A program made the position numbers and the translations under genes. From positions 1 through 34,288 of the forward strand of contig MU633633.1 in NCBI GenBank assembly GCA_026770595.1: a stretch of 34,288 nt of DNA, read 5' to 3'. Under the pieces are notes generated by a model. The model was not told where the DNA came from. It saw only the letters and a list, made by a program, of their open reading frames with translations, and did not search any database. Shown here piece by piece: positions 1-33,000 of this stretch (position 1 is its first letter; each line of letters starts with the position of its first letter). The DNA is from Ochromonadaceae sp. CCMP2298. Taxonomy: Eukaryota; Sar; Synurophyceae; Ochromonadales; Ochromonadaceae.

Positions 1-3000
1 TGTCCCCGGAGAGGGCTGTGAATGTCACGGTGTAGGCAGAGCCCCCCTCGGAACTAGGGGGCCCCTTGACGACGCTCACAGCGCCCACGATGGCTTCCAG
101 GGCGGTCTGCACAGTCTGGGCGGGGGCGTCGTAGGCCAGGGCGGTGGTTACATACCCATCATAGCTGAGCTCGAAGGTACCCCCGAGGTAGTTGCCGTCC
201 ACCACAGTAGCAGACACGATGGACACGTCAGAGCCAGTGCGCGACTCCGTAACGGACAGTGCAGGCACGTCTCCCTCGATAGTCAGCCACGTGACCGTCC
301 AGGTGAATCCGCCCTGGTTGTCCGGGCCCGTGCGCGCGACGGAGACGTTACCGAAGCCCGAAAGCAACTGCAATTCGTTCGCCATGTCGATGGCGGACAC
401 GTCGGAGGGCAGCAGTTTGCTGGTGGCAACAATGAAGTGGCCGCCGATGGTGTTGCCCTCTGTGACAGTAGAGTGGGCGCAGATGCCGTTGACTGAGAGG
501 GTGCTATCCATGCCGCACACCAGGGGGGGGGCGTTGCCCATGGATACGTCAAACACTACGGTCCACTTGAAGCCTAGTCGGTCGTCGGAGAGACTGCGGC
601 GCACGTCGTACACGTCCACGAATGTGGGCAGGGTTGACATGACCTCCATCAGATGGGCGTCTGTAGTGTTAGATGTGGGAAGGTTGAAGCCTCTAGGGCG
701 CACCCTAGCGGCCTCGATGGACACCTCCGTAGCGCCGAATATCTGCTTCGTGCCATCAGAGAAGTACGCCAAGGGGGTGCAGACGGGGTCGTCGTATGCG
801 GGCACGATCAAGGACAAAGCAGCGGCGCTGGAATCGTCCTGTACGTGCAGCCCGTTGCCGGTGAAGTACACACTGTATGTGTAGCCGTAGTCGGGGGAGG
901 AGCCGCCCCCGGTACGCTCGATGAGCACCTCGTCCACCCAGGCCAGCGCCTCCAGCGCTACTGTCATCTCCTCCGATGTGGCGTTCCAGGGCAGGCAGGC
1001 GGTCGTCTCGCCCTGGTAGGTGAGGCTGTACGTACCCTCTACAAAATACGTGTCTGCGCTGATGGTCAACTTCTGTATCTCCGTGTCCACACCCACCGCC
1101 CTATCCTCATTCACCGTGACTAATGAGAAACTGAGCCCGTCGGGGGTGGCCAGGTTGCACGTGGTGCTGTCCCCCCCATACTCAGCTACCATCTTCTGCA
1201 CATTGCCGGCCACCTTGTTGCCCGCAAAGGTGACGCTCCACTGGTACCCGAAGTAGTCCTTGTAGCCCCCATAGCCACTGCGCTGCACGATCACGTCGTC
1301 CACAGTGCTGAGCGCCTGTAGGGCCGCCTCCACCTCCTCCTGGTCCGCTAGCACTGACAAGCACGACGTATACTCCGTAGTGGCCGCATTTGGCAGCACG
1401 TAGGACGCATAGCCCAGCCGGAAGTAGCCTCCCATCGCGTCAGCATCCATAACCCTAGTTGAGAACACCTGCACCTCTGGGAACCTCACTGCGAACTTGC
1501 CGTCGATCTCGTACCCCTCAGGGGTCGTCAAAGTGATCTGCTGCACGTCCGAGTACTCCGCAGCGGATGTGGTGATGGTCTGGATCTCATTCAGGTGTGC
1601 GGCGGCCACGACAATGGCCTGCACCTCATTTGTCTTCAAAGTCTCCAAGGCCTGGAAGCCCTCCAGTGCGGGCGGTGTGGTGGCAGGTACGTTGGAGTAG
1701 GGCGAAGATAGGGCGGAGGTATAGGGGCTGTACCCGTGGTTCGTGCCGCGCGTGTATGCGGCGATGCGCGTTGAGTAGGCGATACCGGTGGACAGATCAG
1801 TCAGCGTGTGCGACAGAGGGTGCACGCCCTCCACGACATCGTCATACACAGTGAGCGTCGTGCCCTCCGTAAGATAGCCCGCCTGGGCCACCATTGGTGA
1901 GACGTTACCCAGGTTGGATGAGAACGTAACCGACCAGTGATTGCCGTTGACCTTGTACAGCGGCGCGTTTGTGATCGACTTGCCAGTGAACTTTGCGGCC
2001 ATGGAGGACAATGAGCTGGAGGCTAGAGGTATCTCGAGGGTGGAGAACTCGCCGTGGGGAATGGACGTCCCCACCTGGGACATTGAGAGCGCAGTGGTGA
2101 CCGACCCCGGGCAGCCGATCTGTGACAGTGTCACATCGTATACGAAGTTGTTTCGATAGAAGGTGGGACTTTCTAGGTACACGTGGTACACATAGCCGCC
2201 CACGTTGGTTACGCTGTCAACCCCGCGGGTCACCGACACACACCTCGAGGTGCAGATGGGCTCCAAAGCGGCAGCAAGCGCCTCCTCGAGCTCCCAGTCC
2301 GCCGCGTTCCAGTGCACGCACTCGGTGTCCGCCGTGGGCAGCAGACCGTCGTTCGTGGTGACAATTAACTTGTACATTACGTCCACAGTGCCGTCATCGA
2401 AGTCATAGTTTGTGGTCAGTTTCAGCACATCGACAGACTGGTCTTGCACGAAATACACAGGGGGCACGAGGTACGCCTGCACGGCGCCGAAAGCCTGGCC
2501 CAGGTATCCCTTTTCCACCGTGATCTGGTTCAGTGCGGGTGTGCCGGAAGAGACCACCTTGGAGGCCACCTGGGCCCCCGCGGGCAGAGTGGAGCCGGTA
2601 CGTACTGCGGTGAACACCCACTCGTCCTCGAGGTGGCCAGTCGAGTGGTTGAAGGTGATATACACCCCCTCCTTGAGCAAGAACGGAGTGTTCGGGAGGA
2701 CCTCCACAGGCTCGGAGAAGAAGCCACCAGGGGTGGTGGACGCCTTCCAGATGAAGTAGTTAACAGTCGCATTCTCCAGTGAGGCGTTCATACGCACGGT
2801 GAAGAGGGTGTCAGCGGACCCGTTGAAAAGACCGGTGGTGGTCAGGTCGTTAAGGTAGAGCGAGGCGTTCTGGGGGGTGTAGCGGGCGCCCGAGATGCCC
2901 CCATCCGAGAGTGCGTTGATCATCGGCACGTTGCCGTTTGAGTCCAGAGAGCTGTACGTGAGATCGTACACGAAGGAGTGCATCTCCTCGGCGCTGCCGA

Positions 3001-6000
3001 AGCCCTCCCGGGTTATGTCCACTAGCACACCGAAATCGTTGAAAAGTGCAGTGGTCAGCGCGGCCGCCTCCACCCCCCAGGTGAAGCCGTCCGCAGCTGG
3101 AGAGACCGTTACACCGTTCTTGACTATCTTCCAGTAGGCCTGTACGGAGTCGATGGCGGACTGGGAGGACAGGCGGATGCGCTGGACCTCGTCAGAGCCT
3201 CCGGACTGGGCTGTTAGGGTCTGCACGCCATAGCGCATGCCCCCGTACTGCTTAGGCGTGCAGATATAGGGCACCAGCTGTGCCACGTTGGTCAGGTGGG
3301 GGCCCGTGAAGTACACCTCGTAGGTGTAGGCGTCCTCGCCCATCTGCACGGTCTCCACGGTGTACTCCGGCACCGCGCTGTGGATCACGAAGATCTCCAA
3401 GGTTGTGTTGTACACACCCACCAGGGGAGGCAGCGCGGAGTCGACGGTTATGGTGGTGGGCTCGATGGCGAGCACTTTGTAGGTCTTGTAGGGCTTGGCA
3501 GAACCTGGCAGGCGGATGCGGTCTCCGGGCTGCAGGTAGGTGTTGGTGGTCTGCTCTACCCCCGCAAGGGTGGCGGTGTTCCAGGTAGACAGACCGGCGG
3601 AGCTGTTGTAGTCGATGAAGATGGCGTCAGTGTACGTACCGTTGAGGTCGTTGCAGCCGCCGTAGTGCCCCTCGTCGATAACCTGCACGAAGGGTGCAGA
3701 GTTGCCTAGCACCTCTGAGCGCACGAACTCGAGTGCGGGTCCGGTGAAAGCCAACTCGTAGACGTAGCCGTAGCCAGAGGTGGAGGAGCCGTCGCCCGAG
3801 CGCGTAACGGTCACGTGGTCGTCATCCAGAGAGGAGTAGGATCCGTCCCCGTTGAAGTCGAACATCATTGCGTTTATGGAGGTCTGCAGGGCAGCGGCCG
3901 AGGCGTGGTAGGAGATGCAGTGCGGGGTGCGCTTCTCTACGCCGTTCACCACCATTCTTAGCTTGAACAGACCCCCCGAGTCGGTGTACACGAAGCTGTC
4001 GGCCGTCTGGGTGATCCTGAGAACAGCCGAGGTGGCGTTTCCGGTACCGTAGCGGGCCACCTGCACAGCGCTGGGGTGGAATAACTCCACCTCCAGGTGC
4101 ACATTCTCCGTAAGTACTATGGCCTTGTCGGTAATGAAGGAGAGAGGCGAGTCGATCGAGGTGACCACCAGCACGTCATCTCTATCCTCAGAGAAGGCCA
4201 ATTGCGAGCCCACAGAGAGGATCCCGTAGACGGAACTGGTTGCGTTGAAGGTGTAGCTGGTAGTGTCTGAGGAGCTTATTTGCACACTGAAGGGCAGCGG
4301 CTGGTTGGTCAGGACATACATGGAGTTGAGCGTGGCCGCCAGAGAAGCGCCGGAGACCCCGTAGTCCACGCAAGAGGTGAGGTTCTCATACCCGGTGTAG
4401 GGGGAGACCGCCATAAGCTTGAACATAGAGCCGGCGATATAACCGTCCTCCACGTTAACCCGGACAGTCTGGGTCTCCGTGTACCCGCCCTGTACAGCCG
4501 TGAACACGCTCACAGTCGCGTTCGACATCTCGATAATACCCGCCAAACCTCCCTCGGCATTAACGCACCCCTCCACCAATTCGAACTGAATATTGTCCCC
4601 GAGCACGTCCGCGCCCGTGAAGTAGACCGAGAATACGTAGGCGGTGGCGTCGGAGTTAGAGGAGCGAGTGACCAAAACTGAGTCCACGTTAGCCTTGGAC
4701 GCCCAGTCTGCCTGCAACGCAGAGGCGCTGGTCATGTCTCCCCCCTGGGGGCGGGTGATGCAGATAGAGGGCAGGTCCATCTCGTTGTGCTTGAACTTAA
4801 GGAAGAAGTCACCGCAGGTGGAGTTCGTATCTTCGCACTGGATGGACACCACCTGCACCTCTGCGCCCGTGCGCACAACCGTGTAGTTGTCTGCACCGAG
4901 GCGCAATTGCTCGCCGGGCAGGATCAGAGGCACAACGCCCGACACGATGGGGCTCTCGGGAGCCACAGTTACCAGGCCGAACAGCTCAGCGCCGTCGATG
5001 GACACCTGCGCCTCAGCGTCAGCACCGTCAGAGCCCCCGATGCGGATCAGATCCCCCGCAGCTAGCATCTGGGTGATATCTGGCGGGTTGACTATGTCCG
5101 ATGTGTCGTAGGAGACGGTAAGAGTGGTGCTGTCACGGCGGGCGGACACAGTTACACCAGGAATCCGCTCCATCAGTCTGAACTGGCCAGCCGTAGCCAC
5201 CTCCCCAACCGTTGACAAGGACTCGAGGATGTACTTCGCCGCTAGGGGCTGCTGGTCGTAGCTGATGGAGTCCGAAGTTGCGCTGTCCAGGGTTAGTGTG
5301 AAGGTGCCGTCGATGGGCGTCGAGCCGTCGATATAGTTGACGCTCTGCGCGCGCACCTCCGTGCCGCTCAGCTCAGTGCCTGCCAAGTACGTCACAGTGA
5401 TGGGGTCGATGTTGCCGCTCCCGGGGGGGAAGGAGAACCCGTTCTTGGCTCCGGTATTCTTCAAGAAGTAAATGCGCCACTCATACCCCCCCACCGTGCC
5501 CGCCTCCACGCGATTGGCGCCCCAGCCGCCCGAGGTGGGGGAGGGGTACTCGAAGCGGTGCACGTCTACGCCCCCCACTGTAGAGAACTCCTCCAGCTTG
5601 CGCCTAAGGCGGTCGGCGGGCTCGTCGAAGGTCATATTGCGCTTGCCTAGGGGGTCGTTCAGGTCGATCGCGAAGAAGCCAGAGACACCGGTGGAGCCCT
5701 GGGCGGTCTCGTAGACTTGCGGTGCGTACGATTGGCCGTCGATGGCTGCCCCCTGCACTACCTGCAGGAGGTTCACGTTGCCAGAGCCGGTAGGATACTG
5801 GCCAGGGTTGTACACGAAGGTAACCTCGTACTGCACCACCCCGTACTTGCCGATCACATCGCGTGTAACGTTCACCTCCCTCTCAGAGATCGACTCCAGA
5901 TAAGACTTTACCGAGACGTTGGAGAAGCGGTCCACACCCTCAGGCAGGGTGTTCCATCTCAGGGGAGAGGTAGAGGTGGTATTTGCGTCTCCCAGGACGT

Positions 6001-9025: not shown

Positions 9026-12000
9026 CTGTAGATTATTATAGAAAGAAGGGGTTTAATACACATTATAGTATAGAGGGGGTTAAATACACATTATAGTATT
9101 GAGGGGGTTAAATACACATTTTAGTGTAGAGGGGTTTTTATGTATGGGCTACTTACCTTGAGGTTGCACAGCTCGTGCTGTAGGTGGGATGCGTTGCTGT
9201 TGAAACTTATGTAGTCCGTGAGGCAGGTCGTCTCCGAGCAGTCGTAGCCCGTTATCCCCATATCGTTCAGAGCCGCGGCGCACCAGTTGGTGTCCGTGTT
9301 GTCGTTGTCAGTGCCGCACTAGTAGGAAAGAGGGGTTAAATACATATTACAGTATTGAAAGAGGGGGTTAAATAAATATTATAGTATAGAAAGAGGGGGT
9401 TAAAGACATATTATAGTATAGGGCTTACCTTGTTGGGGTTGAACTGCAGCCGGTACTGGCCCTCGAACGCGTCCTCAATGGCGAGGCACTCGTCCCCGAG
9501 CACGCACGCGGAGGTGTCGATATTGGAAACGATGGTGCCTATTAGCTGCACAGAGGTGACCTGCTCAGAGTATACCTCGAAGACCTGCACCTCCGGCAGA
9601 TCCACCGTCCTAGTCTGGATGAGCTGAACCTCGTCCACATCCGTGCCGACCAACTCGACAGTCTGCACCTCGTCGATATCCACCCCCTGCGTGGTGATCC
9701 GCTGGATCTCGTTCGTCACATCATCGCCGGTTGTGGTGACTGTCTGTATCTCGTCCGTGCCGTTGACCGTACTCCGCACAATCTGTTTCTCATTCGTGAC
9801 CGCCACCACTACCCTAATAGCTTGCGTCTCGATGACCACCTGGCTCTGTGCTACCACTGTCTGCACCTCATGCACTATAGGCAGGTCCAGCAGCTGATAG
9901 TAACCCTCCTCGGCGCTGTACTGCAGGCGGTACTTCTCCAAAGTGGCGCCCCCGTCTCTATCGGGATGGTCCCATCTGGTAAACAGGGACGTAACTCCCA
10001 CCGAGCTGATTGCCATATTTTGGGGGCTTAGGGGGGCCGTGTCGACAGTCTTCACGGCCGCAAGCGCGTAACCCGCCACCCCCGCGCCCTTGCTGTTGAA
10101 CGCGATCAGTCTCACGTAGTAGGTCTGACCCTCAAGCAGGTCCGTCGACGCCTCGCCGGTCAGGATGTTGCGCCCGCCGATCTGGAAGGCCAAGTTGTCC
10201 AAGTTGGTGATGGTGGCTCGGGACGCAGGGGAGCCGAAGTCAGCCCTGGTGTCCCATTCGAGGCTATAGTAGCTCACGGGCGAGCCCCCGTCTCCGCCGT
10301 ACACGCACTCCAGCGCGTCTGGCGCGGCCCAGGTGACCATAATGCCCACGGCGTCGGTAGCGCGCGCGAGGACGGAGGTGGGGGCGCCGGGAGGGTTGAT
10401 GGAGCCGGTGGCGAACTTGGGGCTGGGCAGGCCGGCGTTGGACCAGTCAAAGCCGTTGTAAGCGTACACACGGGCGTACCGGGGTAGCGCCGAGGAGGCG
10501 GTGGGGATGGTGATATCGTAGCAGTACTTGGGTCCCGAGGTGGACGAAACGGCCACCTCTCGGCGGTTGCCGGTGGTCTCGACGTTGGCGAAGTCTGCCG
10601 ATACGTCCCACTCGATCTTGAACCGCTGGATGGCCGCGCCGCCCGTGGAGAGCGGCGTCTGCCAGGTCAGCTTGAGCAGGGCGGGTGACAGGGCGAAGAT
10701 TGTGGCGTTGAAGGGCGCAGAGGGGGCCACTAAGGGCGCCAGCATGGCCGAGACTACGGGGTAGGAGTAGCCCTGGCTGTTGTGCGCGCTGACTCTGACC
10801 TGGTAGGCGGTGCCTAGGGTCAAGCCGGATATGGTGTCAGAGCGGATTGTGTTGCCGGACACGAACTTGGCAGCGTAGTTGGCCGGCGCAACCCCCTCAG
10901 AGGTGGTGCTGACGCCAGCCTTGGCGAACAAGCCCGTCAAGCCCGCGTCGTTCACATACATGTCCTCCGCGTCACCCAGCTCGGACAGGAAGGTCACCCG
11001 CCAGTCGTGCCCGTACCCGTTCACGAAGCGCGTAACAGCCACCTCCGAGATTGTATCCAGGTTCTCTAGGGTGGTCTTCATCTCTGCGGCGGACAGATCG
11101 TGTGACACGGGGGGCGACATGGTGCCCCCAAAACCTACGCGGAAAGAGCCCGATAGGGGCGCCACGCCTTGTCTCAGAGTGTCTACCTTCAGCACCGGGT
11201 TGGTGCCCGCCCAGTTGTCCGAAGTACGCACAATTAACATGGGAAGGTCCCCTATTTGGTTGTCGAAGGTGACGTCCCAGGAGTACCCGTAGGACCAGGC
11301 GTAGACGTAAGCCTCCTCTAGGTCGGGGGTGGTGATTGAGGGCGTCACGACGATCTCCGTAGGGCCCAGGGGCGCCGTAACCGAGTACTGAACGCCACTC
11401 ACCCACACAATATCCCCCACCGCGAAGTCTGCGATCCCTTTATTGACGGTGAACCTGTCCACACCCAGGGTGCCATTGACCTTCATGCCCGGAACCACAA
11501 TACGACTCAGAATACGCTCTACTGACACGTCCCCCATGGTGGACAGACGCGCCAGGGCCTGGGCCACACTGTCCTCCCCCTCGGGGTTCGCGTCCCATCT
11601 CACGTTGCGGGTGGTCTCCCCCCCGAACTCTAGCTTGAAGAATCCAGCTAGGTTGTTGGCGTCGGACTCCACCGTGATGCGCTGGATCTCAGACAGAGAG
11701 GCGGACGAGGAGGTGGTTATCACCTGCACCTCGTAGGACGGGAGGACGGTGTAACTCTCGAGCAGATAGCCGTCCACAGTGGCGTCCCCGCCAGCCCAGT
11801 TAACCAGCAAGCTGGAGCCCGAGGCGATCGTCAAGCTGGAGGAAAGGGGCTGCGCGGGCTGGCTCAGCACAGTGGCAGAGGAGGTAGCAGACTGGAGAGA
11901 GAAGCCGCGATCGTTGTAAGCGAATACTCTCACGTGGTGGGTGGAACCGTACTCTAGATTCGTCAGATCGACCTGGAGGGGGTGGGATCCCTTGATTAGT

Positions 12001-15000
12001 TCGAACACCTCCACGGTCGCGCTAGAGGCAGGCGTAAGGTCGGTGTGCACAGTGAAGGGGGGAACATTGCCAGCACCCTGTACCACCTCCTTGCGCATGT
12101 GCGTGAAGGTCACCGTCCACGCGTAGGTCTGCAGCCGTGTGGAGAGCCTCTCGCGCCTCACGTTAACCGCGAAAATCGTCGGAATGAACTCCAATTTTCG
12201 CTTAAATTCGACCTCAGATTCGTCGAAATTCATAGCAGGCGTCTTGTAGCCCTGCATCTCCAACACGAATTGCCCGTCGATCAGAGACAAAGCCTGTGTG
12301 CGCACGGTCTGCACCTCGTACGTGAAGTCCCCGGGGACCACATCGCCCGCCCCCTTTGTGATTTCTTCCACCGTCATGCGGGCATCGTCGCCCACCAGCA
12401 TAGCCGAGTCTGCCAGAATCAGGCCGACATCACCCCTTATGCCCTTAAACACCACCGTCCAGCGGTAGCCTCTCGTCCAGGCGGAGCGGGTGACCGTAAC
12501 GGGCGCGGTGGCCGCCTGCCTCGTGCCGATGAGATTGTTGAGCACCACCTCAAGGTCAAAGTCGGTAATATCGTGCGAAAGGTCTGGCGTTGTGCGCCCG
12601 CCCAGGGTGAGCTTGAAGCTGCCCCCGCGGGTCTTCACGTCGTCGCCGGCGCGGTAGTGGGTGGTAATGCGCTGCACCTCGGGGATCACCTGCAACTCCA
12701 TGGTGCTGTATGCCGAGGAGGAGGGGTCGAAGTTGCTTGAGGTGTCGGACTCGATGCGGTAGAGGGTTATGGGCAACCCGCCCTGCACCAAAGGCGCCTT
12801 GTAGGACACGGTGAGGGAGTTCTTGCTGCTGTACTGACCCAACACGACCGTCTGAGGGGCCTGGGGCAGGCCTCCGTACAGTTCTGTGGCCACGTAGGCG
12901 ACCTCGGAGGGGGGAGAGATACCTGCCTTGTTGACTGCGCGCATACGCATTGAGTAGTTCTTGGCCTCATCCAGGGCGATATAGCGGGCCGAGTAGTCCG
13001 CCGCGAACTGGGATTCTCTAATGGTGTCAAAGTGCACCTCGATGTCCGCAATCTGGGACATATTGGAGTTCAATTGGGGGATAGTTTGGGTCCCGTAGGC
13101 CCCCCAGAAGGCCACCGTGTAGGAGTAACCGTAACTCCAGATGGCGGATTCGCCGTCGCCGTTGCGGGTCACGCGCACGCGCTCAACGTTTAGCAGTTGC
13201 TCAAGGTTGTACTTCCAAGAGGCAGCGGAGGCGCCGTAGGTAAGGTTGCCTACGATATCTGGCCCCAGCTGTAACTGGAAGGTAGCTGCAGCTGCCTGCA
13301 CGGTGGCCGAGATGTTGGCACTGGGGGCCCGGAAGGTGACTGTCTGCAGCTGGCTGTAGCCGCCCAGCTTGAAGGTGTTCGGGGCGATCCCGTCGGTCCG
13401 GCGGGTCAGCACTTTGACGTTGGTGCCCCTCCAGTCGGACTCGAGGGTCACTCTGGCGGTGGCGATATCGCCCGTGGTTGACTTGAGTATGACAGATCGC
13501 TCGAAGCCGTTTGCGCCCTCATCGGCGACAGCGCCCTCGAAGGGCACTAAGACATCTGCGCCTGAGACGAAGTAGTTACCACTGATGGAGGAGATGGACA
13601 TCTGATAGTCACCCACCCAGATAGAGTCCGACACAGCCACCATGCCGCTCCAGCTGACAGTGCTGTGCAGCTCCACCTCCTGGGGGAATATGTGCGCCAC
13701 CGGAGCTCCAGCGGTTACGTCCTCGGCCAAGAATACAGAGCCCAAAGTGGAGCAGTAGAGAGTAGTCTCGCCTGGGCAGAGGGCTGAAGCGGAAATTGTA
13801 TAGGCCTCGCCTAGGATGTAGTACGTCGTGGTGTCCAGCAGTACCGAGGTTACGATGTCGGCATCGCCGGTGGTGGCGGTGTACAGCATGCCCACGGACT
13901 CGATACTGGTCAGACCGGGGAGGGCCCGCTTGGATTGACGGATGGTGCCAACATTCACTGCGAAATCGGTTAATGTGGGGGTAAACTCGGCGTTCGTGAA
14001 TACCACCGTGCTGGCCTCTGTGTAAACGAGGTCCGTCACGAAGCCCACAAAGGCCGCGCTCGGGATTTGGAGCATGTCTCCGAAGGTGATCTGGGTGGTC
14101 GTGTTGGCTAGAATTGTAAAGTTCTTGCGTGCGAAGAGGTCTTCCACGGTGACCATGAAGGGCACAGAATCGTACGCCTCTTGCTCCCGTAAACCCACCA
14201 TCGCCGCTCTAGCTATGTTAGACATGTTGTGCAGGGCACCTAGGAGGGTTGAGTCGGTTGCGTCGAAGCGGAGAGGGATGGACTCTTGCGCGCCAAGCCG
14301 CACCTGGAAGTGGCCAGAGATGTCGTTCTTCTCAGCGGTGGTGGTGATGTTCAGCATAGGGTATACGGCCACAGCCGCGTTCACTCCCTTGATGTGCTGG
14401 TCGTCAGACAAGAGCGTCTCCACGTCTCCATACATGGCGGGGAAGGTGACAACCCACGCGTAACCCGAGAAGGGCGTGTCGATATGCGTGTAGCGGGTGA
14501 CGGACACGCCTGAGACCACGGTAAGGCTGTTGAGGGCCGCCTCCACCTCCGAGGAAGTGGCGTCGTACCCCAGCGCGGAGGTCTTCTCCCCCGCCAGGTA
14601 GAGGTAGAAGTAGCCACCCATATCCCCCCTAGCCTCGGCCACCACCGCCTGTACATCAGGCGACCCCTCGGCACAGGCGACCATATCGTTAGTGGCAATT
14701 ACGGACACAGTGGTGTTCTTGAACTCCTTCGAGTCGCACGCGCCGCCGTACTCCGGCCCCCATTTGGGCCCGTCGTCCACCGCGATGGCGCGCAGAACGG
14801 GCCACTCAAGCTCTTGGTAGACGCCCTCGAAGAACACGTGCATGTCGCGGTAGAAAGGCCCCTCGCCTGTGCTCCTCAGATGCTCCTCCACGTACACGTT
14901 CTTGGTGCCCCCCATCTCCATCAGAATGTGCTGCAGGGCGTCTCTTGAGACGTTCAGGGGGATGCAACGGGTGGACTCGGCCCCCAAAGCGAGGCGGAAG

Positions 15001-18000
15001 GAGCCCCCGCCCACTACGTCCACAGCATCGGACTGGATCGTCACAACCTGGTGCTCAGAGTTCTCGCCTATGCCGAGTCTGCCGCAGTCGGCGAAGATCC
15101 ACTGCGTGTCGTAGTCTGCCGGCTCGGAGGTGGTCGGTCTGTTGAGAATCTGGACCACGAACTCGTCCGTAAGAGAGTCCGAGGAGAGGTCGGAAATATC
15201 CAGAGCCAGCGAGCCCATAGCGAGAGACCCCACCTCCACGTTGAGAGTGATGGAGTATTCGTAGCCTTGGCCGTAGGAAGGCGCGAGCTCCGATCTTGTG
15301 ACGGTTACTGCCTCTGTGGAGGCAAGAGAGTTCACTGCCGCCTCGATCTCGACTGCCTCTGCCCCCCAGGGGAGGGCGGTAGTGCTGGAGTCGTGGAAGG
15401 ACAGTTTCCAGTAGCCCAGGGAGTCGTTTCCTGCTCTATTGAACATCCTGAAGGTCAATGTTGAGGCCACTTCGAATGTGCTGGAGGTGTCAGTCGTATA
15501 CTCTAGGAGGTATTTGTCAACCACGGCGCCGCCCACGTCCGAAGGGGGGGTGAAGGTCAGGCCGATCTGCGAAGAAGACAGAGCAACAACGGAGGCGACT
15601 TGGGGCGCCGTGGGGCGCGTGGCGAGCACAAAATTCATAGGGACCACGCCCTCTCCCTCGTTCTGCACAGTGGTGGTGGACTCGCCCGCGCCTGCGGAGT
15701 TGCTCGCGAACACCTCGACGGAGTACTGGGTCCCGGCCGTAAGGCCGGTGATATAGTCGACCCTAGGCAGAGGTACGCCCTTGATCACCTCGGCGATTGT
15801 CATAGACAGATCGGCCCCGTAGGCGTCCAGGCCCAAGGCGGGGCTGAGGTCGTACTTGATAAGGGGCAGGTCGCCCTCCTGGGTGAAGGTAATCCGCCAC
15901 TCATAGCCGGTCAACCCACCCTCGGAAGAGAGGGTGGTGCGCGTAACGGCCACATCACCCACCGTGGGCAGGGACTCGAACTTGACCTCAAAGTCTTCGG
16001 CGGATTCGTCTGACCGGAAGAAGACCGCCACACCGGAGGCATTGAAGTCCAAGTTGAAGCCCCCGAAGAGCAGCCCGTCGGCCACCGTGATGGTCACGTT
16101 TTGCACCTCTGAGACGCGACTAGAGAGGGTGTGCGTGGTGACTATGTTGGACAGGGAAGGGGGGGAGCCGGCCTGCACGAGGGTGGCGACGATGGTGGCG
16201 CTGTCGCCCATGAGGATTGTGGTATCGATGCCTTCGGTTAGGGTGAGCAGGTTCGTGCCCACGTCCTTTTTGTACGTACTGTTGCCCGCGTAGGCGGTGT
16301 AGATCGAGGAGCCGTTGGAGAAGATGGTGTAGGGCGAGTCCAGCCTCTGGTAGGCGCGTCGGCCCGCGATGTAGCTGTCTGAGTAGTAGTAGCCGTCCAG
16401 ATCGTCCAGAGCTGAGACGATGATACCCTCGGAGCCCTCAGTGAAGACCTTGAGGCAGGCACCGGAGCAGGTCTGCGTGTCTCCGTAGATGGAGGTGAAG
16501 GTGATTGACCAGGTGTAGGAGGCCTGCGAGGTGGGGCCGTAGCGCGTAACGTCCACGGAGCCCACGCCCGCGAGCGCATCGAGCTTCGCCTTGAGGTCCT
16601 CGGCGCGCTCATCGAAGCGCACCAGGGTGTTGGGCTGTCTGTACAGAGTCAGGAAGGTCGTCGCGTAGTTAGGAATGACCTCGACAACGGTAATCAAGGA
16701 GCCGCTGTTCGAGACTACAGTGAGGACCTGGCTGGTGCCTAGGGCATCGATGGCGAGCAGGTAGCTGCCAGCGGACACGTCGGCCGCGGTGGTGAGTGTG
16801 GTGGCGCTAGGCGCAGTGGCGGTACTGACTAGTGTCTCTGAGATGAAGACGTTCATGGCCATGGCGCCCTGTGTGTGGTAGGGGAAGAAGGTGACGGTCA
16901 GTCCGTCTGAGGAGACAGACTCCACCAGCAGCTCCTCATCCCCCACACGGATCGTAACGCCCTTCGCAATCATGCCGCGCACATCCACGCTAGCGATCAG
17001 CGTACGCTGGCCCGGGACGATGTTCACGCTCACGGCTACCGTCAGGCTGGTCAGCAGCTGCCCCATGTGTCCCTTGAATCCATATCGGAGGTCGAAGTAA
17101 CCGCTGACAGTGTCGGCAGCAGCCGTTACGAGCTGGTATACATCAGGAATGAATTCCTGCTGCGCCGCGGTGAGGGTATCGATAACCACGTCTGAGGACA
17201 GGACACTGCCAGAGCAGGTGGAGTGGTAGGTGATGATGGGGGCGTCGTACACCGCATCAAATACGATCGTAAATACGTTCAAATCCGAATCAACCGTGAC
17301 GGTGACCGCATCGACGGAGGCCAGCTCTTCTATGCGCAGCTCTAGCTCGAACGCAGAGGCGCCCATGTCCACGCACCTGCTCACAGAGGTGGCATCGGCC
17401 AGCGCGAAGGCTCCGGTAGCATCAGAGAGAGTGATGGTCATCACGGCGCTGACGGGGGAGGCAACCACGACCGTGTACGAGTCGATCTCGCGACCCAACG
17501 CGCCCTCGGATCGGATCGCCGGCGTTGACCAGTCGATCGCGAAGGTAGTGGAGTCAATGAACTCTACCGAAGCTGTCCCCACCACGGGGGGCGCCTGCAC
17601 CGGCCTGGCGGAGGTAGGGGTGCCGGGGTAACCCAGGTAGGAGTAGTCGGAGCAGTGGGAGTCCTCCTGGCACGTCTGGATGCGTATGAAGTATGACAGA
17701 CCGGGGATGAGACTCTCAAGGGTGGTGGAGTGGGACGTGGAGTTCTGGGAATCAAACGTAACCGCCCCAAAGTTGTTGGAGAAGGTAGGCACGGTGTCCA
17801 GCTGGATTCTGAACACATGCAGGGCGGAGGTGTTCGCTAGGGTTGACCAGCGCACCAGCAGCTCAGTAGCAGACACAGACAAGGCCGTGATGTCAACCGG
17901 GGCGGCGATCTCGTCCCCGTACAGGAGGACGGGGCCCTTGGAGGCGAAGGACGACATGCCTATGGAGTTCATGGCGGCCACACGCACGTACACTGCACTC

Positions 18001-21000
18001 GCCCCCTCCAGCAGGGAGTTGGCGATGTCGATTGAGTAATCCGCCACCCCCCTTACGAACGTGTTGAACCCCTGATTGACCGCCGTCACCACGCCCGCTG
18101 ACACAGTTATGGGGGTGACGTTCTCCGTCAGCGTGTCGAAGGTCACGGTGAAGGTGGAGGTGGCACCAGCGCAGCCGCAGCTGGCAGGTGTCTCAACGGT
18201 CTCGAAAACTGAGACGTGCCCGATCTGTGCGATCGCGGCGAACATTTCGGCGAATGAGGAGGCGGAAGAGGAGGCCGACAGGGTGAACGAGGCGCCCATG
18301 AGGGACACCGTGGTGTCCGCGTCCGTGCAGATGCACACATCTTGCACCTCCTGCTTAAGCTCACTGTCTATGAATACCGCCACTGTGCTGTTCGTAACGC
18401 AGTTGGTGTCGTTGTAGTGCATGCCCAGGCCCACACAGGAGCGCAGGAACTCCCCCGAGGCGGCAAAGCGGTCCCCGAACTTGGTGCTGTAGGGGGTCAG
18501 GTACTCCTCCGTGAGGTCGCCGTTGTTAATGACATCTAGGAAGGTGACTTTCCACACGTAGCCGCGGTCCATGCCACAGTTGTTCAGGCCAGTCTCCTGG
18601 CTGCAGTAGAGATCCCTGGTTACCTCTACGCTGCTCACCACAGGTAAGCCTTCCAGGGCAGCCTTCACACCGGCAGAAGATATGTTGTAGTCCAATTCGG
18701 CCGTGTTCTGGCCCAGATAGGAGAGCACAAAGGTGCCAGAGGGGTTGAAACCAACGTCCGCCACCACGGTCAGCAGGTGCACCTGCGCGCGGCGAGCCAT
18801 CTCGTTGGACAGGTGGACGATCTCCAAGCTCGGCTCGCCCAGAACACCGGAAGAGAAATCCGCCGCGGTGTCTACCTGCACCTTGTAGGCGGAAATCAGC
18901 TGGCCGCCGTTAAAGGCGGGCGCGTTGAACTGTAGGTTGAGGGTGCTGTTCTCAGCCACGAACACGCGCACATCCAGCACCGAGAAGGGCACCTGGTCGG
19001 AGGTTTGCTTGTTGGATGGGCTTGATGTACGGACAATACCGGCACCGTATGCGTTAACCCCCGACACCCCGATGTAGTAGTTAACACCGATCTGCAGGCC
19101 CGCCAGTACGTACTCCTGCACGGGAAAGGTCTCGGCGTTTCCAGACACCGCCGCCTCGATGAGCTGCTTGTTGATGAGCAGCAGGGGCATGTGGGTGGTG
19201 GTCTCAGGGGACAGGCCGTTGAATGTGACCATCCATGAGAAGCCGTTGTACTCCACCGAGCGCGTAACGTCCACCACTCCCACCATGCGCAGGGCCTGCA
19301 GTGCATCCTTCACCTCGTCAGCGCCAGCGTCGTACGTCAGTGGCTCCGTGGTCTCAAGGCGATACACGGGCAGGACCGACTCCCTTAGAGTGAGCACAGT
19401 GGTGCCAGAGAGGGTCGAGGCGTCGCACCCATTGGAGCCCACATCCATCACCTCTATCTCAGGCACGTTTCCTCTGACCAGATCGCCCACGAAAGTGACA
19501 CTGTAGGTGACCGACACGCCCGACACGGTGGATCTCGTCACCACCACTGCATCGATGCTCAACAGGTGCATCAGCTCGGCAGCCACCTCGGACGCTTCTG
19601 CGGCGGGGTTGATGCAGCCGTAGTCGCCCCCTGCAGTCGTGACGAACGTGTTAGCGTCCCTGAAGCGCAGACGGAAACCCGCCGAAAGAGAGGTGTCGTC
19701 ACCGCTGAGCGTGATGGACTGGACCTCGTAGGTGGCATGCGTTAGCGCCGTAATGGACAGAGAAGCCTCCTCAGTGGGGTCCTCAACGCGCCCCAGGCTG
19801 ATCTGGGGCGCCGCGTTGTCCAAAACACGGAACACCTCCCCTTCCGTAGGGTGTCCGATCATAATCCAGTCGCCCACGTCCAGCCCCACAGCGGCCTCGT
19901 TCCAGCTGTCGTCCCCATCTGTGATGTAGATAGCCGTAGAGCCCAGAACGGGGTTGGTGGAGCCGCCGAGGGTAGTATCGAGCTTGTACAGAGGCAGGGC
20001 CTGCATCACGTGCCCCTCGAAGCCCGCGTCGAAGGCAGCAGCCACGTAGGCGTCCATGGTGCAGAGGGGGATCACAGTGGGCCCGAAAAGCCCATACTCG
20101 GACACGAATTCTGGGTCCTGGTTTAGGCATACGCGGAACTCCTGGCCTCCCACGCGGATGTACTCGCCCGGTGTGACTAGCTCGAATAAGTTGATGTAGG
20201 CGGGGTTCTCCCAGCTGAGCGTGATAAAGGTATCCCCGTGCGTTACATCCACACGCGCTGTGGTGTTCGAAACGCCGTCCGCCGCGGCGTAGACGATGTA
20301 CAGGCCCTCGAAGCTGCCCAGGGACAGGGTGAACGTGGAGGAGTCGGTAAAGGGCAGCGTGTGCGCCGATGTGAGCACCTTCTGCACCCTATTTGAGAGC
20401 GGCACGTCGATCTGGGTGGTAGAGTCGGAGTCCGTGGCGAGGTCCAGCTTGTAGGCTGTAATGGCGTCGCCTGAGGTCGCAGCGTCCTGGGTGAAACTCA
20501 CGAGCAGAGAGGAGCCGCTGTGTGCCTTCACTGAGCACACAGAGGGTGCTAGGGGCGTGCTGGCAGGCACAGCTGAGACCATTTCGGACAAAACACCGTC
20601 GCCGATGTCGTTACTGGCCAGCACCCTGAAGTACCACGTGACTCCTGTAGAGAGGGTGAAGGTGGTACTCATCTGGGAGGACGAGGTGGCCAACACGACC
20701 TGCGACTGGTACATATGGGGCGCCACGCCGGCGCGCACGCGCAGCGTCGTGATGGTGGGATCAGACCCCAGCAGCTGGAGGGGATTAATTATTACGATTG
20801 GCTGCGGACCAACGTTCGAGGTGAACGTAACGGTCCACGTGAAGCCCGCGCCGACCAGGGTTCGCTCCACCTGCACCTGTCCGAAGTCGGCCTGAGAGGG
20901 GTAAGAATAGGGGGGCGGGCATATGGGTTTAATACAGATAGTATAATGAGGGTTTAATACAGAAAGTTTACAGTGGGTTTAATACATAATACATAATACA

Positions 21001-27000: not shown

Positions 27001-30000
27001 GTTCTTGTACCTGGACTCCATGATCGGCTGGATGCCCATAACCACCTCTTGGTAAGAAGCGAGCACCGCCGAACCCGTGGAGGAGTAGAGCTTGGTCACG
27101 TCGGCGGAGAGCATCTCGACGTTGCCCAAAAGCTCTGTGAAAATCACGTACAAGGTGAAGCCCTCGCCGTTAGACATGGTGTTTCTGCGGCGTACCACGA
27201 CCTCTCCGCAGGACAGTGCCGACAGAGCAGCCTGGATCTCCCCAGCGGAGGCGGACACCAGCAAAGGGGGCGTAGACTGGTCGTTGTAGGAGATAGAGAA
27301 GGTGCCGTTGAGCAGACCCGACAGAGCCTCGACAGACACTGATTGCTGCTCGAAACCCGCCATTGCTTCTACCACCCTGTTCACAGTAATCAGTCCCAGA
27401 TTCCCAGCGAAGGTACTGTCCCCGCCTGAGGTCACGTTAGCACCGAAGTCCTTGACCAGCGTGCCGTCGGCGTTGGAGATGCCCATCTGCGGCACATCGT
27501 AGTACCGGTTGCCTATGTACCAATCAGCGTTTAGGAACGTGACAGACCAGCTGTACCCATAGTCCGACTGTTTAATGCGTATTATGGAGGGGGTTAAATG
27601 CGTATTATAGTATAGAGGGGGTTAAATACACATTTTAGTATAGAAGGGGGTTACCTTGTCTTCCGAGCGCACCACTCTCACATCCCCCACGCTCGGCAGC
27701 GCCCTCAGGGCCGCGTCTAGGTCCTCTGCCAGAGCCGTAACGGCTATCTGACCGGTGGAGAACCCGCCGAAAGAGAGGTAGAAGTACCCATTTAGGGAAT
27801 AATCAACGGCCTTCGAGTTGACCACCTGCACCTCGTAGGGGGAGTAGAGCAGGGACTTGGGGGGGTTGGAGAGATAGCCGAGGTCGTAGGCCTCCGCGCC
27901 CAGCACATCCCACTCCACCTTGTAGTGGGTGATGGGGGCTCCGCCGGTGTCTGACGGGGGGGTGATGGTCACCTGGAGTTTTTATATAGAGGATTTAATG
28001 AGTATTATAGAGGGGGTTAAATGCATATTTTCGTATAGAAAGAGAGGATTAAATACACATATACAGCATAGAATTATGGGTTTTAATACCTGTAGAATGT
28101 TGTCCAGCATACTGTCCACGGCGACCTTAAGGGGTGCCGAGGGCTGCACCTTAGGCACCTTGTAGAAAGTAAATAATAGAATCATAGGTTATATTGTAAA
28201 TAGATATTATATATAGGTTATAGTATATATAGTATAGGTACGAGTAGTAAAACAAAGGCTATAGGTTATAGTAGTATTATACTCAATATGTATTATTATG
28301 TATTATGGTTACCTCGAAGAGTCCTGGGGGCGCCCCCGCCTCAACTGAGTAGCCGTACGAGTTGTAGGAGAACACTCTCACATAGTAGGGGGTGCCCTTC
28401 TCCAGCCCCGAGATGGAGTAGGAGCTAGAATGCGTATATAAAATAGAGAGGGGGTTAAATACATATTATAGAGAGGGGTTTAATACATATTTTAGTATAG
28501 GGGTTAAATACCAGTGGGTCAGGGAGCAGTTTTGCCCGCTGGAGACGAGCTTGAAGTGGTAGCCTACGGGCGAGCCATGAGCTGAGTCGAAGGTAGGGGA
28601 CAGGTCCCACTCCACCTGGGTTTTATTGTTATTTCAGTGTAGGGTTGTTATTGTTAGAATAATTTTGGAGAGTTTAATTTTTATTGTACAGGGTGAACGG
28701 CGTAGGGGATTAGGGGATGAGATGAAATAGGGGGTTAAGAGATTGGGTGGTCACGGGTGAGGGTTTTAATACCTTGTACTTGGTGATGACGTCGCCACCA
28801 TGGGACTCCGGGTGCTTGTAGAAAATGTTCAGGCTGTTGGCGCCGCTGGTGACCAGGTACGTATCGAGGGGTTTTGAGGGCTTCTGCACAGGCGGCGCGA
28901 GGGATTTGGGTACAGACACCTGAGCGTTGGAGTACCCCTTCTCATTCAGAGAGGTCACCTAGTAGTGGGTTTAGTACATATTGTAGTACGGGTGCGCATT
29001 AGTATAGGGAGGGAGGGAGGGAGGGTTTAATTCACATTATAGTGTACCTTTATATAGTAGGACACGCTGGGCTCAAGGTCTGTAATGACGTAGGAGTATG
29101 AGGAGACCCCGTCCGAGGCAGCTACCACGGTCGAGTTGTACCCGTGGGGCAGACTGGCCGGAACAACCGCTACGGTGGCGACCACGGCACCCCCACCCAC
29201 CGAGTCCACGCCCGTGGCGTCCACGGACAGTGCACGGTTGTATACGGTGGGGAAGTCGTGCAGAAAGGTGACCGTCCAGACGTGGCCGTTGGTCACTGTG
29301 GTGCGCTTGACCTGCACCTGCAGGGGGTTTAAAAAAACATTATAGTATAGAGAGGGTTATACACACTATAGTATAGAGGGGGTTTAATACACATAACATA
29401 CCTGTCTGATATCGATCAGCGACTCGAGTGCGACACGTACGACGTCCTCGGATGAGTCTACGGGAAGGTAGTCGGTGGTTTCGTCGTTGTACACTAGGCG
29501 GAATGATCCCACCAGCGCGTCTGCCGACGACACCTGTGGTTTGGGTTTATGAGTATAGAGGTGTTTGTTTGGATAAATGCGTGTGTAGGTGTGGTTATTT
29601 GGGAAATGTGTTAGTGTGGTAGTGTGTTAGTGTGTTAGTGTAAAAGTGTGTATTAGTTACCTGCACCGTTGCCACCTCGGGCGCGACGTTGATATCCCAC
29701 CACTCTACCAAGTACTCGCTGATGGCGGAGCCGTGCGTCTCCGAAGGCGCTGAGAAGGTCACCTTCACGCTGGAGCTGCTCTCAAGGACAGACACTGCCT
29801 CGGAGGCGGGCAACGCGCTGAGGCGCACAGATCCGTAGGGGATAACTGACGGCTTGTCGTAGGGCGCGATTGCGTTGCCCCCCGATGCGACGAACTCTGC
29901 TACCTCGTAAGCACCAGTGCCCATGCTGTTCACAGCCGCTACGCGCACGTAGTAACTGAGTTTTTGTGTGTTTGGGTAATATAATAGTGTTGAGAGAGAC

Positions 30001-33000
30001 GGGGTTAAATACATATTATGGTATAAAGAGAGGGGGTTGAATCATTATAATTACCTCTGGCCTGCCACGAGTCCGGTGATGTTGTGGGACAGAATGGTGC
30101 GGTTCTGGGTGTCGGGGAGGCGGTAGGCGTTCACCACCGCGTCCGCCTCCAGCACCACCTGATAGAGCGGGTTTAATACAGATAATAGTGTAGATAGAGT
30201 GGGTTTACGCGTTTGGGTTTAAGTGTGTGGAGGTGTGGTGTGTTTGGGTAATTTGTTAGTGTGTAAGCGTATAAGTGTGTATTTACCTCTTCTGCTACCA
30301 GGAAGGCACCGTCTGTCGACCACTGTATGTTGAAGTGCGTTACGGGCGCCGCACGGTCGTCCGAGAAGGGCACAAAGGCCCAGTACGCGATCAGAGAGCT
30401 ATAGGAGGTTTAATGCAAATTATAGTATAGAAGGAGAGGGTTACATACACAAATATAGCAATAAAAATATGGATTTTAATACAAAATATAGTATAGAAAT
30501 ATGGGATTTCATGGGGATTACCTATCAGACCCCTCGGCGCGCAAGATCTCGGCGTATTTAGATGCCAGGGGGGCGGCCATGGGCTTGAGGTAGATTGCCT
30601 TGGTGGAGATGGAGCTGTTGTGTGTGTATGTGTGTGTAGGTGTATGTTTAGTCAAAAACTATCTATAAAGTGTCAGATTATACAGTATTAGCACCTGTAG
30701 CCTTCGGCGTTCGTGGCGAACACGCGTACTGCGTAGCCGTCCGTGATCGAGGAGTCCTGGGTTTAAAACATGTTGAGGGAGTTTAATTACAGTATATAAG
30801 GGGGGTTATATATAGCATAGAAATATGGGTTTTAATACACATTGTAGTATATAATATGGGTTTTAGTGGGTTTTACCTGCACGAGCTTGTTAATAACATA
30901 GGAGAGGTAGCCTCTGGAGCCGATGTTCGTGTTGACCGATGAGTAGTTGCCCACACCTGATGTGTACACCACTACGGGATTGGCGGAGGCCTGGCTGTCT
31001 TCGGCTAGGCAGTAGAGGGTCGCGGAGAGGGAAGAGGGGGCGGCGTCGAGGCAGACCAGGCCGGCAGATCCGAGGTTTGAGGCGTCCAAAACGAGGTTAG
31101 TGGTGTCAATAGAGATCCCCCCGGGTGCCACATTGGTCACGAAGGTCACCGACCAGATGCGCGAGTCGGGGTCCAGACCCCCCTCTGTGCGTGTGACAGT
31201 TACGTCGTCGATGTCCGGCAGGCGCTCGAGGATCTCCTCCATACCCGCCGCATCTACGTTGTACGCGATGTCGTACGGGTATACATGGCCTGGTGGGGAG
31301 TTTAATACATATAGAAAGATTGGTGTTAATACACATTATAGTATATAAATATGGATTTTCATACATATTATAGAACATAATATGAAATGGGTTTTACCTG
31401 CCGGAGAGGTGAGTCTGAATGTGCCTCCCACTACGTCGTAGCTAATCTTGATCGCCTGCACCTCCAGTGGCTCGTTCAGCAGAGAGAAGTCATACCACTG
31501 CACTGTGTAGGACACGATCTCCGTGCCGCCGTCGTCCTCGGGCGCGGTGAAGTTGCAGTACAGCTGGTTCCATGAGGCGATCTCCAGAACCGCCCCGGTC
31601 ACAGGGGTGGGCTTGCGACCCGTAGGAGTGACCACAAAGGGGCTGCCCAATATCTCCTCCACAGAAGGGAACATGCGATAGGAGGGGATCGTCTCAGAAG
31701 GCTGGGATTTTGAGGACCACGCGAGGACCACGGAGGCAGCGCCTGCGTCCTCACGGTACTCGATTTTGATACTCACGACCTGGTTGGCAATAAGGGGCTG
31801 TGTTGACACGACGAACGTAGAGGGGCCATGTCTGACCGAGTTGTTGAAAGCATCCAAAAGCATCACGTCCCCAACCCACAGACGCACTCCGTCATCCACA
31901 CGCAATGAGATGTCGAAGGATTCAGAGAAGGCGGGGAGGAGGTAGCCGGTCCAGCGGGCGGATACGTAGTCCTTCGCGTTCTCGATGAGGGGGCTCTCTC
32001 CCCACTCGAAGGAGATGACGGGGTCCACGCGCGTCTCCTGGGGAATGCCCAGAAGCCAGCGGTTTGAGAAGTACTCTCCGTACAGGCCGCCGCGTAGGGC
32101 CTTAGCGACTGTGAGATTGTACGTACCGACCCTGGGTACGTCGTACACCACGTCGAATAGGCCCTCACCGCTGTAGGTTACGTTGGCCTTAGACACGACC
32201 TGTCCCTCCAGCGTCGCGAGGAAGGTCTCCCCAAGGGCGCCCGAGGAGGCGGTGGCGGTGGTGCCGGATATAGCTGTGGAGGGGCAGTGGTCGTGGTTGA
32301 CAGTGATGGCCACATCCAGGCCCTGTAGTAGCTTGCCCTCAGCGTACAGCGCGGTCGGGTACTGGTCGTAGGCGACGAACTCAACAGTCCAGTCGACGCG
32401 ATACGTGCCAGCTGTTCGCTCCACCTTAACTGTGTAGATTGAGTCGAACTCCTCCAGTGTGGCCTTGAGCTCCTCCTCAGATATGTCGTAGGCCATGTCG
32501 GGAGTTACCTCGTCTCCCATAGAGAGCGTAAAGGTGCCGCCAATGGCGCTGCTCGCGGCCGTAGAGACCACCTGGTAGGTCAGCTCGTTGCACGACACGA
32601 CCACGCCCTGTGCGGGGCTAAAGGCGCTGTCGCTTAGTGCCGAAGTGTCTATCTGGATGGCTTGAAGGTCGCCCAGGTTCGAGTCGAACGTTACGATATA
32701 CTGATACCCAGAGGTAGGCTGCGTGTACAAAACCACCGACTTTTCGGAATAATCCAGATAGGGGGAGGAGATGGTGAGTCGGCTGTTGAGGGTGTCTACG
32801 TGCGAGACGGTGTAAACAGGTCCACCGGACTTGATGCGGATCCAGTCGCCCACGGCGTAGGCTGAGGCGGGGTCTGTGTTGTCATTGATGGACACGTAGA
32901 TAGAGCCCTCGACCACGTCCCCCAGCAGGGCTGAGTCCACCTGCACAGAGTTGGTCGACACCTCCACAGAGCCTATGGAGGGCAGAGACTCCAATGCTGC

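Follow-up and report, generated by a model that had tools for sequence, protein, structure and literature searches.

A nine-unit ladder of 13-residue repeats in a giant fibronectin type III protein of stramenopiles

The window analysed here, a stretch of 34,288 nucleotides from Ochromonadaceae sp. CCMP2298 (contig MU633633.1, positions 1 to 34,288), encodes on its minus strand a ladder of nine tandem repeat units within a giant protein that also contains fibronectin type III (FN3) domains and modules beginning with an E-V-Q strand (EVQ modules). Because unit count and spacing were constant among relatives, the sequences indicate that the ladder belongs to one giant FN3 protein of stramenopiles as an old, unvarying element and is not an expanding repeat. 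On balance, we favour the view that it forms a beta element fixed at nine strands, and that it stands at the base of a huge arm that is looped out of an FN3 domain. The two features at the centre of the analysis are the following.

9411..20978, minus strand: open frame of 3,855 residues holding the nine-unit ladder, with FN3 domains and EVQ modules
9516..9869, minus strand: nine-unit ladder, each unit consisting of E-x-Q-x-[IV] and a polar turn mostly ending in N or D; aligned in 54 relatives

Constancy of the ladder within and between proteins

The nine-unit ladder was confirmed at exactly the coordinates given in the first-pass annotation, the coding strand running from 9869 to 9516. In this direction the units are EVQTVVAQSQVVI, ETQAIRVVVAVTN, EKQIVRSTVNGTD, EIQTVTTTGDDVTN, EIQRITTQGVDID, EVQTVELVGTDVD, EVQLIQTRTVDLP, EVQVFEVYSEQVT and SVQLIGTIVSNID, which start with EVQ, ETQ, EKQ, EIQ, EIQ, EVQ, EVQ, EVQ and SVQ and are spaced by 13, 13, 13, 14, 13, 13, 13 and 13 residues, bearing out the annotated 13-residue period with one unit of 14. 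Seven of the nine units strictly fit the E-[VIT]-Q start that had been proposed, but the third (EKQ) and the ninth (SVQ) depart from it. Residue identity within the nine-unit segment was highest at lag 13 (0.267) among lags 5-29. When the residues of the segment were shuffled, one of 10,000 randomised versions attained this value at any of these lags, which rules out chance periodicity. DNA identity at the corresponding lag of 39 was 0.44; the units have therefore diverged, as annotated, and the duplication is old. This value, together with the occurrence of the units in relatives, rules out a recent expansion. Three other readings were also rejected: the plus strand of 9516..9869 contains a stop and no ladder, the location of the whole ladder within a single open frame rules out shuffling of one exon per unit, and an odd/even super-period of 26 residues was not supported.

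Similar ladders do exist in related proteins. Three protein searches (26 matches, 6 matches and 27 matches, 22 of the last being new) gave 54 distinct relatives; as these were picked by ladder similarity, the presence of a ladder in them is by selection, but this does not apply to its constancy. With a local profile, the ladder could be aligned in all 55 rows (the window and the 54 relatives). All eight spacings were the same as in the window in 31 of the 55 rows, and another 13 rows had a first gap of 14. The fourth gap was 14 in 53 rows and 15 in the other two, gaps 2, 5 and 6 were 13 throughout, and no row had a gap below 13; the other rows showed additional residues in gaps 3, 7 or 8. When P0031 and P0055, in which the ladder end looks cut by the gene model, were dropped and the rows were reduced to 37 with less than 80% identity, 22 matched the window's spacing and 7 had a first gap of 14. 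The first-pass annotation had proposed to look for ladders with varying numbers of units; at the orthologous place the count was nine in the rows examined, although separate three-unit and two-unit ladders stand elsewhere in the same protein. Individual units also tended to keep their rank, the unit of the same rank being the sole best match in 542 of 900 comparisons between five groups (about 100 expected by chance), although units 1 and 7 performed poorly (29/100 and 24/100, respectively). These comparisons used 12 rows, namely the window, five oomycetes, four diatoms (P0010 counted among them on its placement in the tree), Triparma and Discosporangium. Identity among relatives was at least as high in the ladder as in the flanking folded domains.

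In the 37 non-redundant rows, E1, Q3 and I5 recur unit after unit, N or D is common at position 13 and E at position 1. The alternation of hydrophobic residues noted at first pass holds for position 5 (100% of cells) and position 2 (80%), but is much looser at positions 9 (67%), 12 (65%) and 7 (54%).

The taxonomic range rests on the 21 of the 54 relatives that are listed with an organism name, several species occurring more than once. They belong to Triparma, Discostella, Thalassiosira, Discosporangium, Aphanomyces, Saprolegnia, Pythium, Globisporangium and Phytophthora, that is, to oomycetes, centric diatoms, Triparma and one brown alga (Discosporangium). Four of these nine genera were looked up and are all stramenopiles, as are the remaining five. 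No pennate diatom was among the named matches, in searches limited by protein length that do not show absence. A tree of the ladder and about 310 preceding residues (46 rows, after removal of P0031, P0055, the weakly scoring P0037 and six rows that have less sequence upstream of the ladder) grouped the window and metagenome relatives with Triparma and the diatoms (support 96/98), and placed the long-branched Discosporangium on the other side, beside the oomycetes and further rows; it was rooted at the midpoint, so that polarity cannot be read from it. Seven rows (P0024, P0025, P0027, P0028, P0034, P0035 and P0054) form a branch of their own (99/95) and may represent an uncultured stramenopile group.

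Relation of the ladder to EVQ modules

The first-pass annotation had derived the ladder from the leading strand of the EVQ module, and the transitions found in the window fit this derivation.

9429..9554, minus strand: ninth unit, continuous with the first part of a diverged EVQ-type module (SVQLIGTIVSNID...GQYRLQFNPNK), with a GTAAG donor at the end
1475..1627, minus strand: three-unit ladder (first bases of units from 1627 to 1549) followed by an EVQ-type module; also found in 32 of the 54 relatives
11610..11732, minus strand: two-unit ladder (first bases of units from 11732 to 11690) followed by a canonical EVQ module (EVQVITTSSSASLS-EIQRITVESDANNLAGFFKLEFGGETT)

Units 1-8 of the nine-unit ladder are leading strands alone and lack the rest of an EVQ module; only the ninth proceeds into a diverged one, the coding sequence extending 87 bases beyond this unit up to the GTAAG donor. 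The final units of the two-unit ladder, the three-unit ladder and the nine-unit ladder of P0034 likewise each continue into an EVQ-type module. Within the 11.2-Mb, 724-contig genome of the window, searches that each scored two or three candidates returned matches in the window alone, to the nine-unit ladder and, weakly, to the three-unit one.

A bacterial EVQ-type module shares with the eukaryotic one the E-V-Q-x-[IV] leading strand and the motifs G-x-F-x-L-x-F-x-G-x-x-T, V-x-V and Y/W-x-V-x-F. It was found with a consensus of the bacterial module at 74 bacterial loci (Streptomyces, Nocardia, Mycobacterium, Planctomycetes and others). The 56 modules from the window and its relatives matched 36 bacterial ones in hhalign with 99.6% (E 3.5e-24), a score to be read with the fact that all modules were cut out by one pattern that itself enforces their front part; the last 62 residues alone, on which the pattern makes no selection, gave 98.4% (E 9.7e-15). 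The bacterial proteins differ from the ladder in that, in frames of at least 100 residues at the 74 loci, leading strands were not seen in runs of three or more. Nine runs of two units were present, most of them chance-like; the one plausible case, on the plus-strand translated frame of locus L044 (Pararhodobacter), has two leading strands close together (TVQTVTQGSGSGNEVQRVTI) and is a possible minimal ladder outside eukaryotes. Searches whose reach is limited to close relatives found no viral ladder with the window's ladder (viral_contigs) and no prokaryote ladder with that of Triparma (genome_contigs). Because the EVQ modules match bacterial ones, yet no run of three was seen at the bacterial loci, the ladder is best explained, as far as these comparisons go, by multiplication in stramenopiles of the strand that leads an old module. 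If inherited vertically, the multiplication would have preceded the split of oomycetes and ochrophytes, the number of units having been frozen afterwards.

The resemblance of the units to the leading strand of the EVQ module, and the presence of more EVQ modules downstream in the same chain, also agree with a docking strip that has no single fold and whose nine donor strands cap or zip onto EVQ modules of its own or a partner chain. We regard this as very improbable: direct evidence for it is lacking, and docking is not needed to account for the ladder's recurrence at one place in the chain.

Interrupted FN3 domain and fold of the ladder

A Pfam scan of the ladder's frame returned only fn3 and look-alikes. 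Directly before the ladder the whole-domain profile fails and the first half of an FN3 domain alone matches; a second half may lie far downstream, before the three-unit ladder.

9870..10037, minus strand: first half of an FN3 domain, stopping at the ladder start (Pfam fn3 positions 2-42 of 84, hhalign)
1682..1828, minus strand: putative second half of the interrupted FN3 domain (TDLSTGIAYSTRIAAYTRG...; hhalign 91.4%), with second-half-only matches in 21 of the 32 relatives that have the three-unit ladder

In the scanned frame, residues 1651-1704 are covered by positions 2-42 of the 84-position Pfam fn3 profile, and residue 1704 is where the ladder begins. The segments preceding the ladder in the relatives matched the FN3 first half with 98.9% over 51 columns (hhalign), and with a local profile built from 42 FN3 domain sequences of these proteins the first half ended no more than 30 residues from the ladder, or spuriously ran into it, in 52 of 55 rows; about 110-120 residues lie in between in P0024, P0027 and P0054. 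The part before the ladder would comprise about strands A to C'. The three-unit ladder was recovered by pattern in the 32 relatives, where it lies 1,729 to 2,711 residues downstream of the nine-unit ladder's start, with one at 3,984; of the 22 relatives without it, 16 stop within 2,000 residues of the nine-unit ladder and six do not (P0007, P0020, P0037, P0040, P0050 and P0054). The segment before it matched the end of FN3 with 91.4% (E 9e-7, 33 sequences; reversed control 0.3%), a match that is convincing mainly in the last third. In 21 of the 32 relatives a second-half-only match, each weak (-1.0 to 10.2 bits), ended within 100 residues before the three-unit ladder, a placement seen at none of 6,400 random points between the ladders, and in 20 of these 21 it was the first FN3 signal downstream of the nine-unit ladder. 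With a first-half match before the nine-unit ladder and a second-half match before the three-unit ladder, roughly two thousand residues therefore seem to separate the halves of one FN3 domain, with the nine-unit ladder first in the insertion. The half domain and its neighbours match fn3 like the FN3 domains of titin, DSCAM and others; unlike in those, the ladder and a very long chain of modules seem to break up the domain here, and the ladder itself matches no FN3 family.

Within the ladder no Pfam or NCBIfam family matched (both at E up to 0.1), in agreement with the earlier statement that no named repeat was known, and among the matches listed in the open-access literature there was no report of the 13-residue repeat itself. 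AlphaFold predicted about one strand per unit with low confidence (predicted local distance difference test, pLDDT, 44-61), so that the structure prediction proposed at first pass gave low-confidence strand and not clear disorder. Values near 50, and turns that are polar or acidic with N or D common at position 13 and E at position 1, would suit a conserved unfolded spacer with some strand tendency that becomes ordered when a partner binds or when its acidic turns take up ions, calcium for example; however, a constant number and spacing of units and an identity no lower than that of the flanking folded domains are unusual for such linkers, and we consider this explanation improbable.

In AlphaFold model 1 the ladder is laid out like a parallel beta-helix, while model 2 differs. 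A Foldseek search of known folds with the predicted ladder model gave nothing below E 0.84, and a second look at the matches of model 1, led by chains that we take to be parallel beta-helices, bears on arrangement only. In the same model, strands 26-34 and 37-44 precede the ladder and lead to successive further strands with short loops. This layout speaks for an antiparallel meander, a flat sheet or half-barrel in which nine hairpin strands continue the C-C' sheet of the split FN3 domain. Geometrically, hairpins would also suit strands of 6-9 residues with joins of a few residues. E1, Q3 and I5 in every unit would nevertheless be better suited to the stacking of like on like, and the helix-like chains heading the Foldseek matches argue against a meander as well, which makes it a less likely, though serious, alternative. 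Model 2, which contains the two-unit ladder, has confident strands at 25-31 and 39-45, corresponding to the units, and then at 54-59. Structures of three FN3 domains align with it over the range 5-587 (first and last residue only); the model suggests that the shorter insertion carrying the two-unit ladder may behave like the large one, which is supportive but not proof.

The ladder shares with beta-solenoids tandem units of near-constant length and hydrophobic columns at fixed unit positions; from the models, a solenoid fold is unproven. The CsgA fibril, whose structural match does not bear on membership of the curli-type repeat family, and chain B of the Suf complex have parallel beta-helix or solenoid folds. 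The ladder showed no sequence relation to such folds and differs in its 13-residue unit and fixed unit number, its own fold being a prediction. Comparably short repeats occur in insect antifreeze proteins, which are beta-helical with twelve-residue coils and stacked identical residues and are rich in Cys and Thr with disulfides, whereas the window's ladder contains no Cys.

In the arrangement we favour, the fixed element at the root of a looped-out arm, each unit would consist of one short beta-strand (about residues 1-8) and a polar turn (about 9-13). The strands would stack so that E1, Q3 and I/V5 make continuous columns, giving a short, rigid rod whose length is set and which may hold the arm off the FN3 backbone. 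Profile matches suggest that FN3 resumes some 1,700-2,700 residues further on, so that the modules in between would form a long looped-out chain with the ladder at its root. The role of the ladder would be structural rather than catalytic, as a spacer or stalk within a fibre outside the cell or on its surface. A bolder proposal goes further, to a new 13-residue beta-solenoid of invariably nine units, derived from a bacterial-type module strand, that has served since the oomycete-ochrophyte ancestor as the rigid root of a 2,000-residue arm projecting from a split FN3 domain, an exceptionally large insertion, and as a ruler under selection for length. This we hold to be possible but would put forward only tentatively.

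The host protein and the meaning of the ladder

Hydropathy and inspection by eye revealed a signal-peptide-like hydrophobic stretch in the first 50 residues of six of 15 relatives examined; the others start inside the protein or show no such stretch. From these features the host protein is probably secreted or a structural protein of the cell surface. A further domain and a set of tandem arrays were recorded in the window.

31684-32091, minus strand: PA14 domain (Pfam E 1.7e-19), encoded by the giant gene itself or by another directly upstream of it
9035-9134, 9326-9421, 20925-20986, 27583-27653, 28443-28511, 29325-29393 and 30409-30509: short tandem arrays (ten rows in all)

The arrays have units of 25-33 bases, lie in introns or gaps between coding frames and are mostly alike (GGGGTTAAATACACATTATAGTATAGA-like), as if one repeat had filled several introns; by their likeness they could be related intron insertions.

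Database labels of the relatives read only 'fibronectin type III', 'titin' or 'hypothetical protein'. PITG_01932 is mentioned in PMC12905231 as too long for a localisation program, PMC7409359 names FN3-repeat genes of Phytophthora parasitica whose relation to the ladder protein is not established, and the word 'fibronectin' is absent from the main text of PMC12223298. A role in the flagellum or mastigonemes was considered, as the named matches include no pennate diatom, and found no support among the matches listed in the open-access literature.

Short tandem repeats usually gain and lose units, yet this ladder has kept nine, together with its unit of odd length, in the stramenopiles examined; this argues for a structure in which length is important. 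The ladder also stands where a chain of modules of about 2,000 residues begins, seemingly inserted in an FN3 domain, and its host is a giant, conserved and uncharacterised protein common to diatoms, a brown alga and oomycetes. The structure of the ladder would show how a single beta-strand unit multiplies into a fold.
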